A DNA stretch of 50,309 nt from positions 1 through 50,309 of the forward strand of contig JALUFE010000034.1 of the NCBI GenBank assembly GCA_027052175.1. Direction: 5' to 3'. This document shows, one piece after another, positions 7,002-38,206 of the stretch; the first letter of the stretch is position 1; each line of letters starts with the position of its first letter. Made by a program: the position numbers and the translations under genes. The notes under the pieces were generated by a model, which was not told where the DNA came from, did no database searches, and saw only the letters and a list, made by a program, of their open reading frames with translations. The DNA is from Helicobacteraceae bacterium. Lineage in GTDB: Bacteria; Campylobacterota; Campylobacteria; Campylobacterales; Sulfurimonadaceae.

Positions 7002-7019
7002 TTTTCTCTCCTTTTTTAT

Positions 7020-7292
7020 TAACTGACCTTACGCACCATATCATAAACTGAGCGAAAAGCCAAAGCGTCAGCTGCAAGGCGGAGGTTTTTCAGCGTAGCC
7101 AAAGCTACGGTGAAAGTTCTCCAACGAAGTCAGATGATGCTTTATCTTTTCGCCCTACGGGTGGCTTTTGCGACACGCGATTGACTTCGTTACACCTCCT
7201 CAGTGTAGCTTTGGCTATGCTTCGTCGGTGTGCCTTGCACTCACATATCGTAAAAACCACTCAGTTTATGATATAGTGCGTAAGGTCAGTTA
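7020..7292. repeat. Palindromic Y-shaped intergenic element, copy A (clpB leader)
   Basis: Outer inverted arms of 33 nt (7020-7052 and 7260-7292) match at 32 positions; the single mismatch becomes a G-U pair in leftward RNA. They begin TAACTGACCTTACGCAC. Between the arms lie two further imperfect stem-loops, 7052-7153 and 7161-7260. The first has an apical hairpin at GTAGC/GCTAC (7095-7108) and the second at TAGC/GCTA. In both inner stems a GCAAGGC word on one arm faces AACGAAGTC on the other. Copy B (31991-32302) is the same element in the opposite orientation. It lies wholly in the clpB 5' leader, 18-19 nt before the start codon. There is no open reading frame inside. Confidence 0.9.
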
Positions 7293-7300
7293 TTAGAACT

Positions 7301-7365: not shown

Positions 7366-7394
7366 AAAAAAAGAAATAGTGCCACTTTAGTGGC
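7366..7394 (-). terminator. Probable intrinsic terminator of the 7450 gene
   Basis: In the minus-strand transcript GCCACT and AGTGGC (complement of 7381-7394) form a six-pair hairpin with a two-base loop. After five bases it is followed by a U-rich run (complement of 7366-7375). The offset of the U-run makes it weaker than a textbook terminator. Confidence 0.5.
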
Positions 7395-7406
7395 GAAGAG
7401 GATTGA

Positions 7407-7477
7407 GGGTTCAGATTTCAGGTTTCAGTTTTAGAGTTCAGAACAAGGTTTATAAAACTACCCTGAAATCTGAATCC
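7407..7477. repeat. Heptanucleotide repeat patches forming an inverted pair
   Basis: Two patches are built from TCAGATT/TCAGGTT-like 7-mers. One is intergenic (about 7410-7440, reading TTCAGAT TTCAGGT TTCAG) and one is in the opposite sense within the last codons of the 7450 gene (about 7462-7488). The best matching 16 nt (7407-7422 and 7462-7477) are inverted with one mismatch, so they could also pair in RNA. Confidence 0.55.
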
Positions 7478-8337
7478 TGATTCCTGAGCGCCATTCTTTC
7501 ATACCTCTCAATCATACTCTCATTGCCCCTCACACCTCCACTGTGAATATAACAAATCTCTTCATCTGTCTGTTCAAGCAACATCTTCCACATCAGCGGC
7601 GCATAGAGCAGATCGAACTCTATACCTGTTTCCTCTTTAAGTTTACTATATATCTGCCACAATTCCCTGTAAGGTCTGCCGAATGCATACTTTCTGTCAC
7701 TTTCAAGGATTATCAGATTTGAAGGGATGTCGGCCAATGCACGCATCTGCTCTTTGAGATACTCGGCATCTCCCACTGCCGGCGTCGTGTATATACGGTA
7801 CTCCGGCAGAGAGTGTGCCAAAAAGAGTGCCGTCGTTCCCGTTCCGCTTGGAGTGGCCAAAGCTTTACCGGGCACTTCCTGTTTTCTGATCTCTTCGGCA
7901 AGTTTCTCTATGCCTTTTTTGGCATCACTGCCCGCTCCCCCCTGATGTACGATCAATGTCCTGGAATCCTCCTCTATCGTCAATGAAGCGATAAACTCTT
8001 TATAGAGTGGATGCTCTATTTCGTAGTGGCGCATGCCGAGTTCAAGTGCGTAGCGATAATTACCCTTTGGCATAGCCTTTTGCGTTTTGGAGAGAGGTTT
8101 GGTATAGTAGTGAAATTCCCAGCCTTTGTCTTGACAAACCTTGGCAATGGAGAGCATCGCATTTGACTGTGTTCCGCCATACGATATCACTCGATCGAGT
8201 GTATGCGAAGCAGTTTGAATAAGCGAGTAGAGTTTTCGATATTTATTACCACTCAAATAGGGGTCTATAAGATCATCCCGTTTGATGAGGAATTCTCGAC
8301 CGTTGATTTCAACAGCCGAGAGCGGTGTCGGAAGCAT
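7450..8337 (-). CDS. PLP enzyme of the ACC deaminase / D-cysteine desulfhydrase family
   Basis: A 295-residue fold-type II PLP enzyme. The N-terminus carries IKRDDLIDPYLSGNKYRKL, in which the lysine of GNKYRKL is the expected Schiff-base residue. It is followed by YGGTQSNA, which is the substrate carboxylate and PLP contact region, and PSGTGTTALF, the phosphate-binding loop. Proteins of this family deaminate 1-aminocyclopropane-1-carboxylate or release H2S and pyruvate from D-cysteine. The exact substrate cannot be told from sequence alone, and D-cysteine desulfhydration is the commoner role in bacteria outside the plant environment. It follows the PEB4-like gene by 6 bp on the same strand. 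The last ten codons coincide with a heptanucleotide repeat patch, so the C-terminus (QDSDFRVVL) may be a recent addition. Confidence 0.8.
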   Translation of the reverse strand: MLPTPLSAVEINGREFLIKRDDLIDPYLSGNKYRKLYSLIQTASHTLDRVISYGGTQSNAMLSIAKVCQDKGWEFHYYTKPLSKTQKAMPKGNYRYALELGMRHYEIEHPLYKEFIASLTIEEDSRTLIVHQGGAGSDAKKGIEKLAEEIRKQEVPGKALATPSGTGTTALFLAHSLPEYRIYTTPAVGDAEYLKEQMRALADIPSNLIILESDRKYAFGRPYRELWQIYSKLKEETGIEFDLLYAPLMWKMLLEQTDEEICYIHSGGVRGNESMIERYERMALRNQDSDFRVVL

Positions 8338-31990: not shown

Positions 31991-32302
31991 TAACTGACCT
32001 TACGCACTATATCATAAACTGAGTGGTTTTTGCGATATGTGAATGCAAGGCACACCGACGAAGCGTAGCCGTAGCTACACTGAGGAGGTGTAACGAAGTC
32101 AATCGCGTGTCGCAAAAGCCACCCGTAGGGCGAAAAGATAAAGCATCATCTGACTTCGTTGGAGAACTTTCACCGTAGCTTTGGCTACGCTGAAAACAAG
32201 CGAAGCGCTCGGCGAAGCCGATGTTTCTTTAGTAAAACCTCCGCCTTGCAGCTGACGCTTTCTCTTTTCGCTCAGTTTATGATATAGTGCGTAAGGGCAG
32301 TT
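31991..32302. repeat. Palindromic Y-shaped intergenic element, copy B (with 39 bp insert)
   Basis: Outer arms 31991-32023 and 32271-32302 match with one mismatch. The interior is copy A in reverse order and sense, very similar throughout, except for an extra 39 bp near 32193-32231 containing the hairpin CGGC-GAA-GCCG. The right arm overlaps the waaA coding sequence (32272-32302), providing its last codons and stop. A -10-like TATAGA (complement of 32312-32317) lies 10 nt beyond the right edge, as in copy A. Confidence 0.9.
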
Positions 32303-33441
32303 GTAACTTTTTCTATATCTATCTTCGCATCTACCGTTGATGGCGGTAGATCTTTTGCTTTTTTGAGTGCTTCGTATATCGCATCTTTTTCCACATACTG
32401 CACAGAGCTGACATACTTAAAGAGCTCCTTTTGGTGAAAGAAGTGCTTACCGGTAATGATCTTACAGCCAAAGTGCGCGGGCTCAAGCGGGTTGTGTCCG
32501 CCCACATCCTCTTTGAAGGCTCCCCCAAGGATGGCAATATCGCTGATAGCGTAGGTGTTGTTAAGCTCTCCCATCTTGTCCACAAGCACCATATCGCTTT
32601 TAAGCGTCGCATCCTCACTGAATTTTGTCAAGCTCCAGCCGTTTTTCTCAGCATAATTTCGCATCAAACCATAGACGGCGTTAAAACGCTCCGGATGGCG
32701 AGGCACGACGATCAGCTTTGCTGCGGGGTTGTCCTGCTTGTACTTTTCAAATGCCACAAGCACCGCCTCCTCTTCTCCCTCGTGCGTACTACCGGCGACT
32801 ATCACTTCACCCTCCGGCTTGGTGTACTCTTTGCTTTTTGCTATCTTGGCGGCAAGCTTGATGTTGCCTACCACTTCGACATTCTTTGCTCCAAGCGCTT
32901 CTAAGCGGTACTTGTCGATCTCGCTTTGAGCCAAAACCAGATCGGCATAGGCAAACATCCGTCTGTAAAACCATGCCATCCTCATATACTTCTTGTGCGA
33001 CTTGTCCGATATGCGGGCATTGAGCAGCACCAGCTTCGCACCCCTTCTCTTTGCCGCCCAAAAGAGCATATACCAAAACTCCGCTTCGAGTACGACGACT
33101 ACTTTGTGACTTCTTGTCCAAAAAGGCAAAAAGATCTCATACGGCAGGTAGCGCACCTCGGCGTCGTACTTTTTGGCTTCGGCTTGTCCCGTATGCGTTA
33201 TCGTCGTGATATCCACCCGTTTTTGCAAAGCTTCGAGGATGGGTCTTAGCGCTCTAGCTTCGCCGAGTGAGCAGACATGAAACCATATATCGCTGGCTTT
33301 GCCAAAGGGTGGATTGTGTCGCAGGAAAAAGCGCGCGGGGATGGACTCTTTGTACTTCGGTTTGAAAGAGAGATAGACTAAAAGCGGCAGCGCTACGACA
33401 TAAAGCGCTGCAGCGAGGAGGTAGTAAAAAAGCGTAAACAC
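32272..33441 (-). CDS. waaA: 3-deoxy-D-manno-octulosonic acid transferase
   Basis: A 389-residue membrane-anchored GT-B glycosyltransferase that adds Kdo to lipid A precursor. It has an N-terminal TM (FYYLLAAALYVVALPLLVYLS), HVCSLGEARAL (catalytic Glu of the N-domain), VLLNARISDKSHKKY, VAGSTHEGEEE and GGHNPLEPAHFG (C-domain sugar-nucleotide site). The start is GTG at 33441, 6 bp after the zinc-ribbon gene stop. The last residues (TALTHYIIN) are encoded by the outer arm of repeat copy B, which also gives the stop codon, so the native C-terminus was probably replaced by the element. Confidence 0.93.
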   Translation of the reverse strand: MFTLFYYLLAAALYVVALPLLVYLSFKPKYKESIPARFFLRHNPPFGKASDIWFHVCSLGEARALRPILEALQKRVDITTITHTGQAEAKKYDAEVRYLPYEIFLPFWTRSHKVVVVLEAEFWYMLFWAAKRRGAKLVLLNARISDKSHKKYMRMAWFYRRMFAYADLVLAQSEIDKYRLEALGAKNVEVVGNIKLAAKIAKSKEYTKPEGEVIVAGSTHEGEEEAVLVAFEKYKQDNPAAKLIVVPRHPERFNAVYGLMRNYAEKNGWSLTKFSEDATLKSDMVLVDKMGELNNTYAISDIAILGGAFKEDVGGHNPLEPAHFGCKIITGKHFFHQKELFKYVSSVQYVEKDAIYEALKKAKDLPPSTVDAKIDIEKVTTALTHYIIN

Positions 33442-34190: not shown

Positions 34191-34459
34191 AACTGATCTT
34201 ACGCACCTATATCATCTATGAGTGGCATAAGTTGCAATCAAGCATAAATTTTGCAGCACCTATGAAGTTCTCAAGTACTTCAGATATTTCTGCGTTTACA
34301 CATTTGCAACTTCTGCCACCCCGCAAGGGCAAAGAGATAAAGCATCATCTGCTTCGTTGGAAAACCTCCACCGTAGAACAACTACGCTGGAGAACTTCCG
34401 CCTTGCATCTGACGCTTTCTCTCTTTGCTCAAAGAGGATATAGGTACGTAAGATCAGTT
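34191..34459. repeat. Palindromic Y-shaped intergenic element, copy C (diverged)
   Basis: Outer arms (AACTGATCTTACG... from 34191 and its complement to 34459) pair over about 32 nt with three mismatches. One inner stem-loop (TGGCATAAGTTGCAA / TTGCAACTTCTGCCA) is unlike copies A and B. The other (about 34325-34432) is close to the A/B stem, with the AAAGAGATAAAGCATCATCTG arm facing TTGCATCTGACGCTTTCT. It sits between the Nif3-like stop and the zinc-ribbon start. A TATAAC hexamer (complement of 34471-34476) lies 12 nt beyond its right edge. Confidence 0.85.
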
Positions 34460-35220: not shown

Positions 35221-36225
35221 TTACCTTTTTTCCAATATATGCAGATACTCAAAAGTCCTATCAGCTTTATGGTTGCGATTTTGCGTTTTGTCCGCTTTGA
35301 AGCGTTGATACTCTTTGGTTTCTAAATGATACGCTCCATACTTTTGCATCACAGCTTTTACCTCATCTTCGCTCATAAGTCCTTCATTATTATAACTTAA
35401 AAAGATGTATCTAAAGTTTGCGTTTCGTATCAGCTCTTCAAAGCTGTAGAGTACTTCACTTTTCTTACAGTAGCTTGAGCGGTTGTACTCTCTTAACCCT
35501 GTTTTTCCTTTTGGGGTGAAGTTGTCGTATTTGGCTATGGTGTTGAGCAGATGGTAGTTTGCACCATATTGTCTTTGGTTGTAGGGTGGATCGAGGTAGA
35601 GGATATCACCCTCTATCCTCTTTATAAGTTCGTTACTGTCTTCGTTGTAAACTTCATGGGTATTGTCATTTATGATAAATTCCGCACCCTCAATTGTCAT
35701 CTCTTTTTGTGCCGATTTTTTGAGGTGTTTTAAAAACGCACCGTAAACACTTGCGGTGTTTGCTACCTTGTCGGCACTCTCGATCAGCGAAGCAAGCAAA
35801 AAGTAGTAGAGATCTTCATCCATCTCTTTATCTTCATACCACCGCTCTATCTGCACTCTTGCGCTATCGATCTTTTTGCCGTTTTCATCACTGAAGTAGC
35901 ATCGCCCGCTCCCGCTTCCAAGGCAGTAGTTGTTATAGATAAAGCCTGAGTCGATAAGGGAGGAGTTGTTGAGTTTTTCGAGGTATTTTTCTTTATTTTC
36001 TATCTCTTGATGGTTTTGGATATAGTTGCGATTGAGCACATAGCTATAATACTCCAAATCGTTAGCTATCACTTTTTTGACCTCTCTTTTAAAGGTGCGT
36101 CCAACTATCCCCGTCCCGGCAAAGATATCGCAAAATGTTTTCTCATTCAAGTCATCTCCGACGACATCTTTCACCGTTTGCTCTATCCAAGAGGAGAGCT
36201 TGTATTTGGAGCCTATATAGTTCAT
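35221..36225 (-). CDS. DNA adenine methyltransferase (D12 class), orphan
   Basis: A 334-residue N6-adenine methyltransferase of the Dam/D12 class. The SAM site is DIFAGTGIVGRTF near residue 33. The catalytic DPPYNQRQY is near 214, preceded by the opening MNYIGSKYKLSSWI typical of the class. No restriction endonuclease or specificity gene is adjacent; its neighbours are housekeeping genes. It may therefore be a solitary methylase controlling expression or repair, or the remains of a lost restriction system. It overlaps the TPR gene by 4 bp and runs into the Nif3-like gene. The recognition sequence cannot be predicted. Confidence 0.9.
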   Translation of the reverse strand: MNYIGSKYKLSSWIEQTVKDVVGDDLNEKTFCDIFAGTGIVGRTFKREVKKVIANDLEYYSYVLNRNYIQNHQEIENKEKYLEKLNNSSLIDSGFIYNNYCLGSGSGRCYFSDENGKKIDSARVQIERWYEDKEMDEDLYYFLLASLIESADKVANTASVYGAFLKHLKKSAQKEMTIEGAEFIINDNTHEVYNEDSNELIKRIEGDILYLDPPYNQRQYGANYHLLNTIAKYDNFTPKGKTGLREYNRSSYCKKSEVLYSFEELIRNANFRYIFLSYNNEGLMSEDEVKAVMQKYGAYHLETKEYQRFKADKTQNRNHKADRTFEYLHILEKR

Positions 36226-36859: not shown

Positions 36860-37128
36860 GAGTACCTATCCATGAATCTTCTCAACTACTAGCGTTAAGA
36901 AAAGGGTACAGATGCAAGGCAGATTTTTGAAATCATAATGGCTCTACGATGAAAAAATCTAACGCCGTCAGATGTGCCCTTTTCTTAACGCCCACAGGGA
37001 GGTTCAAAATGATACCAACTACTGCGTTAAAAAGACTTGAAGCTACTTGTAGCGACTGCGTCTTTTTGCCTTGTACTTGGCGTCATTTTGAGCCTCTAGT
37101 AATTGAGAAGATTCATGGATAGGTACTC
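36860..37128. repeat. Palindromic Y-shaped intergenic element, copy D (unrelated outer arm)
   Basis: Outer arms 36860-36892 and 37096-37128 are 33 nt with one mismatch, which again is G-U in leftward RNA, but they begin GAGTACCTATCC and are unlike the arms of A-C. Two inner stem-loops follow: 36893-36990 (GCGTTAAGAAAAGGG and its complement) and about 37000-37095 (GAGGTTCAAAATGA and GTCATTTTGAGCCTC). The CAAGGC word facing an AACGCCGTC/ACTGCGTTA arm is kept. The element fills the whole space between the smpB stop codon, which it overlaps by 2 nt, and the TPR start. Confidence 0.88.
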
Positions 37129-37589: not shown

Positions 37590-37961
37590 CTATAATAATT
37601 TACAATCATACATTTTAAACTTACTATCAACACTGATAACTTTATACTCATTGACAATAGCTTGAGAGATGATCATCCTATCAAACGGATCACGATGATG
37701 AAACGGCAATATCCCAAGCATCATAGCACTTTTACCATCAAAATCCAAAATCTCTATCCCCATCTCTTTGGCTACGCTCAAAATATTACCCTCAAACTCC
37801 AAATGTCCGATCGATTTTTTGATCATTATCTCTGCGATGCTTAAAGAACTCAGATAGATATCATTGTCCAAATCTTCGATATAACGCATATACTTTTTAT
37901 CGATTTTTTCGACATCCCCTGCCAACCACAGAAATATATGCGTATCGATAATGATCTTCAC
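37590..37961 (-). CDS. PIN-domain toxin of a VapBC-like pair
   Basis: A 123-residue PIN ribonuclease of the Sll0205 subgroup. Start IIIDTHIFLWLAG with the first catalytic Asp; SSLSIAEIMIKKSIG with the Glu; HHRDPFDRMIISQA with the third acidic residue; VISVDSKFKMYD with the fourth. Such toxins cut specific RNAs when the antitoxin is lost. The start overlaps the antitoxin stop by 4 bp, as in most toxin-antitoxin pairs. It lies between smpB and ispE. Confidence 0.92.
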   Translation of the reverse strand: MKIIIDTHIFLWLAGDVEKIDKKYMRYIEDLDNDIYLSSLSIAEIMIKKSIGHLEFEGNILSVAKEMGIEILDFDGKSAMMLGILPFHHRDPFDRMIISQAIVNEYKVISVDSKFKMYDCKLL

Positions 37962-38206
37962 AGTCTGCTTCCATAAAACAGATCGTTTATCTCTTGGTTT
38001 TCATCATCAAAGTTTTCGGGTATTTTGATCTTTCCTTTGAGTTGTCCAAATTTTCTTATTTTTTTCTCTTCATCATAAGGCACAAGCATCGCCACTTTTT
38101 TGTGTTTTTTGCCAAACTCTATGACATACTTTTCACCATATTTTTGAACCTGTTCCAATATTGATGAAAATTCCGCTTTAAGCTGTCCTACTTGTATCGA
38201 TTGCAT
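37958..38206 (-). CDS. Antitoxin, Phd/YefM-like
   Basis: An 82-residue protein: an N-terminal strand-helix DNA-binding part (MQSIQVGQLKAEFSSILEQV, then GEKYVIEFGKKHKKVAMLVPY) of the Phd/YefM type, and an acidic C-terminal tail (PENFDDENQEINDLFYGSRL) expected to wrap the toxin. AAAAAAGGCTCTTCA precedes the ATG. It is the first gene of the pair and probably represses the operon. Confidence 0.88.
   Translation of the reverse strand: MQSIQVGQLKAEFSSILEQVQKYGEKYVIEFGKKHKKVAMLVPYDEEKKIRKFGQLKGKIKIPENFDDENQEINDLFYGSRL

Follow-up and report, generated by a model that had tools for sequence, protein, structure and literature searches.

MITEs are usually viewed as decayed transposons, with an interior made of passenger DNA. 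In prokaryotes, RUP of Streptococcus pneumoniae, with IS630-Spn1, and QMITE2 of Coxiella are MITEs that are mobilized by the transposases of insertion sequences (PMC2229807, PMC10969869). Among other small repeats, REPs are 20-40 bp long, carry a tetranucleotide tag at the foot and go with a Y1 transposase, and GTAG and CGTC repeats are known from Sulfurovum NBC37-1 (PMC3733652).

The DNA analyzed here, a stretch of 50,309 nucleotides that we call the window, corresponds to contig C34 of a metagenome-assembled genome (1.78 Mb, 85.7% complete). For one window protein, the top named matches come from vent metagenome-assembled genomes that bear the labels Helicobacteraceae or Sulfurimonas, which puts it in or near Sulfurimonadaceae. 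An earlier note, made from this sequence alone, had described four long palindromes, and these were found where it had placed them, at 7020-7292, 31991-32302, 34191-34459 and 36860-37128. Their predicted RNA folding energies (-130.3, -152.2, -113.7 and -133.2 kcal/mol, respectively) lie 50-90 kcal/mol below the local mean and far beyond the background of 145 randomly chosen 272-nt segments of this DNA (mean -62, sd 12.5, minimum -93 kcal/mol). The single plan that the note had given to all four holds for the interior, which is common to them, but not for the ends: the elements at 7020, 31991 and 34191 carry type A ends (AACTGAYCTTACGCAC), whereas the element at 36860 carries unrelated type B ends (AGTACCTATCC) and has the interior alone in common with the others. 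The features are as follows.

7023..7289, no strand: element 1, type A, 267 bp, CTGACC to GGTCAG
7020..7052 (left) and 7260-7292 (right), no strand: terminal inverted repeats of element 1
7053..7153, plus strand: hairpin 1 of element 1, covariance-model match, 73.4 bits
7160..7259, minus strand: hairpin 2 of element 1, inverted, with its motif on the minus strand, covariance model, 85.9 bits
31994..32300, no strand: element 2, type A, 307 bp, orientation opposite to element 1
32024..32123, plus strand: hairpin 1 of element 2, covariance model, 91.3 bits
32130..32270, minus strand: hairpin 2 of element 2, enlarged by an extra ~40 nt, covariance model, 43.5 bits
34193..34457, no strand: element 3, type A, 265 bp
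34328..34427, minus strand: intact hairpin of element 3, covariance model, 70.4 bits
36861..37127, no strand: element 4, type B, 267 bp, AGTACC to GGTACT
36893..36992, plus strand: hairpin 1 of element 4, covariance model, 69.5 bits
36998..37095, minus strand: hairpin 2 of element 4, inverted, covariance model, 71.6 bits

A covariance model of the hairpin recovered seven of the eight inner hairpins, some of which belonged to its training set, and found no other match in the 50-kb window; the eighth (34223-34327, in element 3) is degenerate. In hairpin 1 of element 1, TGCAAGGC stands opposite AACGAAGTCA. This element is flanked by a probable 7-bp target duplication, TTATTAA (7016-7022) and TTATTAG (7290-7296), and the duplications of the window copies are imperfect (6/7, 4/7). 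Element 2 owes its length of 312 bp to about 40 extra nucleotides inside one hairpin (about 32197-32240) and sits in the 3' end of a kdtA-like gene, element 3 lies directly upstream of AAAGGAGAGAG, the ribosome-binding site of a zinc-ribbon gene, and element 4 occupies the stop/start junction of smpB and a TPR gene. The distances to the next start codon (18, 18, 17 and 2 nt) and the tandem gene context had been described correctly. The claim that none of the elements codes for protein was not quite accurate, since the type-A end at 32272-32300 contributes the final codons (..ALTHYIIN) and the stop codon to the kdtA-like gene (ORF 32272-33441), whose native 3' end is missing because the insertion of element 2 cut it off. 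Elsewhere in the window, the 3' end of gene 7450-8337 has an imperfect inverted repeat of another kind (7391-7493, TTCAGATTTCAGG..CCTGAAATCTGAA), unrelated to the elements, and positions 37590-38206 encode a PIN-domain-like protein and a small partner, which by eye have the look of a VapBC toxin-antitoxin pair.

Genome searches with R1, a covariance model of the ~100-nt hairpin, detected it in 60 of 397 Campylobacterota genomes, from 22 of 68 genera. When more candidates were scored, this genome had 74 hairpin matches, G326 had 61 and G063 had 49. Searches within this genome, a copy-number check that the earlier note had proposed, added eight type-A copies, full or partial, and one of type B to those of the window. 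In the common plan, a ~30-bp end is followed by a ~100-nt hairpin; after 3-9 nt comes a second hairpin, inverted, and a repeat of the end closes the unit. Among 93 distinct two-hairpin elements, most are 264-274 bp long, with a few shorter or longer; the gap between the hairpins is 3-9 nt in all but one, and clear inverted arms flank the hairpins in 91. The motif lies on the plus strand in the first hairpin and on the minus strand in the second in all 93, i.e., always in the 5' half. At least six end types enclose the core. Intact type A (CTGACC..GGTCAG) and type H (GGGCACC..GGTGCCC) elements both measure 266-267 bp between the bases that adjoin the target duplications, and in this genome the interior alone also occurs within end types C (TAAGTAATGAGGC) and D (TAGACTTCTTGCAAAACT). 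At these lengths, none comes near to accommodating a transposase gene.

The four palindromes belong to a widespread class of small mobile elements in Campylobacterota, of which we found no earlier description. Rfam gave no match at the gathering threshold, and a permissive search gave chance-level miRNA matches at E>0.7; no relatives were detected in plasmids, phages or viral contigs. The papers searched, mostly outside the subscription journals, held no match either; with repeat databases such as ISfinder outside this coverage, an earlier description is possible. The observations that the earlier note had named as counting against it did not materialize, in that the elements are not local, their structure is kept in relatives and no named family was matched.

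The empty sites that the earlier note had asked for were sought in a conserved operon (smpB-TPR-NIF3-zinc ribbon-kdtA-rlu), which was compared with that of two relatives, L258 and L259, taken as the same genus from their 89-91% protein identity. The smpB|TPR gap is 269 nt here versus 0 and -1 in the relatives, and the kdtA|rlu gap is 299 versus -14 in both; the sites of elements 4 and 2 are therefore empty in both relatives. The NIF3|zinc-ribbon gap is 320 here and 48 in L259; L258 apart, the remaining loci have 14-112. The site of element 3 is thus empty in L259 (a 48-nt spacer), and L258 has a related copy there. The window also carries a DNA-methyltransferase-like gene (35221-36225) between the TPR and NIF3 genes; L258 has it too, and none turned up in L259 or in the remaining relatives of the comparison.

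In types A, H and D, the target duplications at the element boundary each have a single peak length: 7 bp for type A (z 5.0, 4/13 exact), 4 bp for type H (z 6.9, 12/26) and 3 bp for type D (z 4.6, 9/18). In G098, a type-H element is nested within a 165-bp element with a net gain of 4 bp (L227, L212), and uninterrupted copies exist. G098 has a ~165-bp family (L212, L205, L227) with many copies, type-A ends and an unrelated GC-rich interior, one copy of which retains only the remnant of a type-H insertion. Identical hairpin scores among the copies in G046 and in G326 point to recent spread. Judged from these comparisons of sequence, the elements are non-autonomous mobile elements, as the earlier note had proposed, and they show the features by which MITEs are recognized: terminal inverted repeats, no transposase gene and empty sites and, for types A, H and D, target duplications and ends that match those of autonomous elements (see below).

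In the window, each of the four copies sits between tandem genes, a short way before a start codon, and an alternative view would make them structured 5' leaders or attenuators that are selected to control the downstream gene. We consider this hardly credible. At two of three comparable junctions the elements are missing from both same-genus relatives, and at the third from one of two; the flanking genes are unrelated housekeeping genes; and, relative to the transcription of flanking genes, the motif hairpin is sense in 12 cases and antisense in 20. Positions vary widely as well: among 87 elements, with crude ORF calls, the context was tandem for 50, divergent for 28 and convergent for 9, with distances widely spread, so that neither the placement before a start codon nor the tandem context of the window copies is a general rule. 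The start-codon distances of these copies come from insertion immediately before a ribosome-binding site or at a stop/start junction. There was likewise no sign of use as terminators, since no excess was seen in convergent gaps. Of the suggestion that the elements are structured leaders, "structured" is upheld by the covariation and strand-specific G-U bias described below, and "leader", in the sense of a cis-regulator, is not, given the absence of a sense preference and of a fixed position.

The earlier note had also advised a search for a transposase with matching ends, and this led to DDE elements rather than to RAYT or Y1 enzymes, which several many-copy hosts lack. An IS5-family element of 1278 bp (L235) has ends GGGCACCTCTAAAAAC (type H) and TTAA duplications, and a 918-bp IS5-like element (L244, L245, L253) has ends TAGACATCTTGCAAAACTCA (type D) and 3-bp ANT duplications. 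IS4-family elements of about 1480-1570 bp have ends CTCAACTTTCGCAC, identical to type A at 11 of 14 positions, and 6-8-bp duplications. The match to autonomous elements is thus close for types H and D and extends to 11/14 positions for type A, for which no full-length insertion sequence with identical ends was present among 299 relatives; no autonomous partner was found for type B/C, E or F. An intact partner transposase was detected neither in the genome of the window, which is incomplete, nor in the many-copy genomes G003 and G046. G324, which is rich in type-H copies, retains a remnant of the IS5 partner next to a type-H end. A type-C element in G326 (L107, 1784-2053) is located at, or within, a degenerate gene for an IS4-family transposase, much as has been reported for RUP in IS genes of the pneumococcus.

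Hairpins were absent from all 30 IS loci searched, among which no autonomous element containing them was found. G046 has a two-hairpin form (266 bp) and a one-hairpin form (158 bp) within the same ends, and G039 has a hairpin-less form of 56 bp. The likeness of the ends to those of partner insertion sequences, the lack of hairpins at IS loci and the existence of one-hairpin and hairpin-less forms together indicate that the ends belong to the transposon and that the hairpins are a separate module. Elements of 47-56 bp that consist of just two ends, of types H and A, were also seen in L341 and L343 (about 100-165).

Near-identical cores occur inside unrelated ends: L067 (type E) and L058 (type D) are 96% identical in the core and 55% in the ends, and for L141 (type H) and L058 these values are 94% and 36%, which argues for repeated exchange of ends. 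A tree of the cores agrees with this and serves as supporting evidence only, as it is weakly resolved (about 60 columns). The end types might instead be the outcome of slow divergence, in which a single ancestral element and its transposase changed together. End type is indeed clustered on the core tree (18 changes versus a shuffled mean of 50), and total length and plan are nearly constant. We nevertheless regard slow divergence as quite improbable, because cores that are 94-96% identical have ends only 36-55% identical and duplications of different lengths, and because the partner transposases come from different IS families, IS4 and IS5. The core tree also needs 18 changes where 5 would suffice, although it is poorly resolved and at least one of its rows (L146) is mislabeled.

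The earlier note had pointed to a CAAGGC word facing an AACG-containing word, and this proved to be the conserved heart of the family, an asymmetric internal loop with C-AA-GGC on the 5' side opposite AAC-G-H-A-G on the 3' side. Hairpin set A1 was picked by the words CAAGGC and AACG, so that their invariance in A1 is by construction; independently of this selection, neither of the two bases that follow AACG is G in any of 60 hairpins, and the second of them is A in nearly all. Of 101 hairpins in a wider, model-derived set, 51 contain exact CAAGGC and most of the rest a close variant. Readings of the loop as a kink-turn or as attC were dropped on inspection by eye, as the pairing pattern did not fit.

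The helices covary strongly, far beyond both controls. Of the cells examined, 88% are paired, versus 59% after shuffling and 35-51% after sliding, and double-sided changes number 256 versus 97 in the control. On the motif strand (CAAGGC...AACG), G-U pairs outnumber A-C mismatches about 3:1 (186:60), and elements selected only by their ends gave 201:64 (108:32 for one half of the element and 93:32 for the other). The outer arms, an internal control, gave 69:66, and the motif strand forms the more stable fold in 93 of 101 hairpins. A mutation bias tied to replication or transcription does not explain the G-U excess, because the two hairpins of one element have the motif on opposite strands. Such an excess on one strand is the pattern to be expected if that strand, as RNA or single-stranded DNA, has to fold, and it strongly supports selection on one strand in folded, single-stranded form.

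Templated correction is common in long palindromes and imitates covariation, and part of the covariation seen here could stem from it. At the extreme, the interior would be functionless, its pairing kept by template-switch correction and its common sequence passively inherited. This seems very unlikely to us. Correction should erase the internal loop, yet AAGGC/AACG stays unpaired across very different stems; nor would correction be expected to make G-U exceed A-C 3:1 on one strand, with the reverse in the second hairpin of the same element, and the outer arms, which are equally palindromic, show no G-U bias.

Selection on a folded single strand leaves the nature of the molecule to be considered. 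It is probably RNA, with single-stranded DNA as the alternative. As the motif hairpin shows no sense-strand bias, its orientation does not speak for an RNA role at the locus, and there is room for DNA. The hairpins might then act as single-stranded DNA, e.g., on the lagging strand, recognized by a host or transposon enzyme in a REP/RAYT-like manner, which would make the elements a large variant of the BIME type. A pair of inverted hairpins whose mismatches are conserved does resemble a BIME, the strand-specific wobble pairing fits single-stranded DNA as well, and by hand count a Y1 transposase is present in 32 of 60 genomes with hairpins versus 81 of 337 without. However, DDE transposases are also enriched in the hosts (12/60 versus 27/337, by hand count), so that the Y1 association may only mirror the load of mobile elements. 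No Y1_Tnp was detected at E<=1e-6 in G046, G326, G003 and G004, which have many copies and are complete or near-complete, and none in G000 at this threshold; a role for a Y1 transposase on the hairpins is thus unlikely, as several many-copy hosts lack such enzymes. In addition, the hairpins are ~100 nt long versus 20-40 bp for REPs (PMC3733652), and the target duplications and the inverted-repeat ends in common with DDE elements point to DDE transposition. Overall, we consider the DNA-level, BIME-like account unlikely.

The explanation that we regard as likely is that these are two-hairpin elements mobilized in trans, in which one core has been joined to different ends and one strand is selected in folded form. 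DDE transposases of insertion sequences would recognize the outer ends in trans, with type A served by an IS4-like transposase, the GGGCACCTCT type (H) by an IS5-family transposase and the TAGACTTCTTGC type (D) by the 918-bp IS5-like element, and would mobilize the ~270-bp unit while duplicating 7, 4 or 3 bp of target. The two-hairpin core does not belong to the transposon and was joined to different ends on several occasions. With the hairpins inverted, whichever strand is read has the loop in its functional form in the first half. Of this account, the sequences show the mobile-element steps and strongly support selection on one folded strand. We lean slightly towards the folded molecule being RNA, from transcripts that would run through the element from either side and be bound by a putative factor. 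A transcript from either side meets a motif hairpin first, which makes an RNA function independent of insertion orientation natural. Such a hairpin may protect or insulate host messages, or may bind a factor that favors the element. More tentatively, and with somewhat less than even confidence, we propose that the core could be an independent module, of folded RNA or single-stranded DNA, that survives by changing its transposon ends as a satellite of many unrelated transposases, and that its loop would bind a Campylobacterota-wide factor that aids its spread or its tolerance by the host.

In this family, the usual view of MITEs is reversed, as it is the interior that is conserved and the ends that are exchanged. 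Should the folded strand be functional, a phylum-wide structured RNA (or single-stranded DNA) motif would lie hidden in a mobile element. The motif is present in tens of copies per genome and occurs in Sulfurimonas, a genus with cultured members, which makes it testable whether a small bacterial repeat structure is selected or is a mere by-product of palindromy.

Several known systems resemble these elements in part. Like REP/BIME repeats with RAYT enzymes, they have paired inverted hairpins with mismatches, and those systems rely on single-strand recognition. Membership in REP/BIME was rejected, as the hairpins are ~100 nt long and their conserved word forms an internal loop instead of a GTAG or CGTC tag at the foot; the elements also have inverted-repeat ends with target duplications, and several of their hosts lack Y1_Tnp. 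ERIC, Correia/NEMIS and CIR are likewise intergenic palindromic repeats for which RNA-level hypotheses exist, and CIR shares two hairpin arms with a linker (PMC2229807). The published descriptions set them apart: they are about 100-200 bp long versus ~270 bp here, their host group differs, CIR is listed without terminal inverted repeats and has GANTC, and neither a CAAGGC/AACG loop nor multiple end types are described for any of them (PMC2229807). RUP and QMITE2 are similar in being short, non-coding and intergenic, with inverted-repeat ends that match an insertion sequence, target duplications and transcripts predicted to be highly folded (PMC2229807, PMC10969869). They differ in that, in these sources, each family is given one set of ends and no conserved core common to the ends of several IS families is mentioned, whereas in the elements analyzed here the hairpin motif is kept across genera and is strand-specific.
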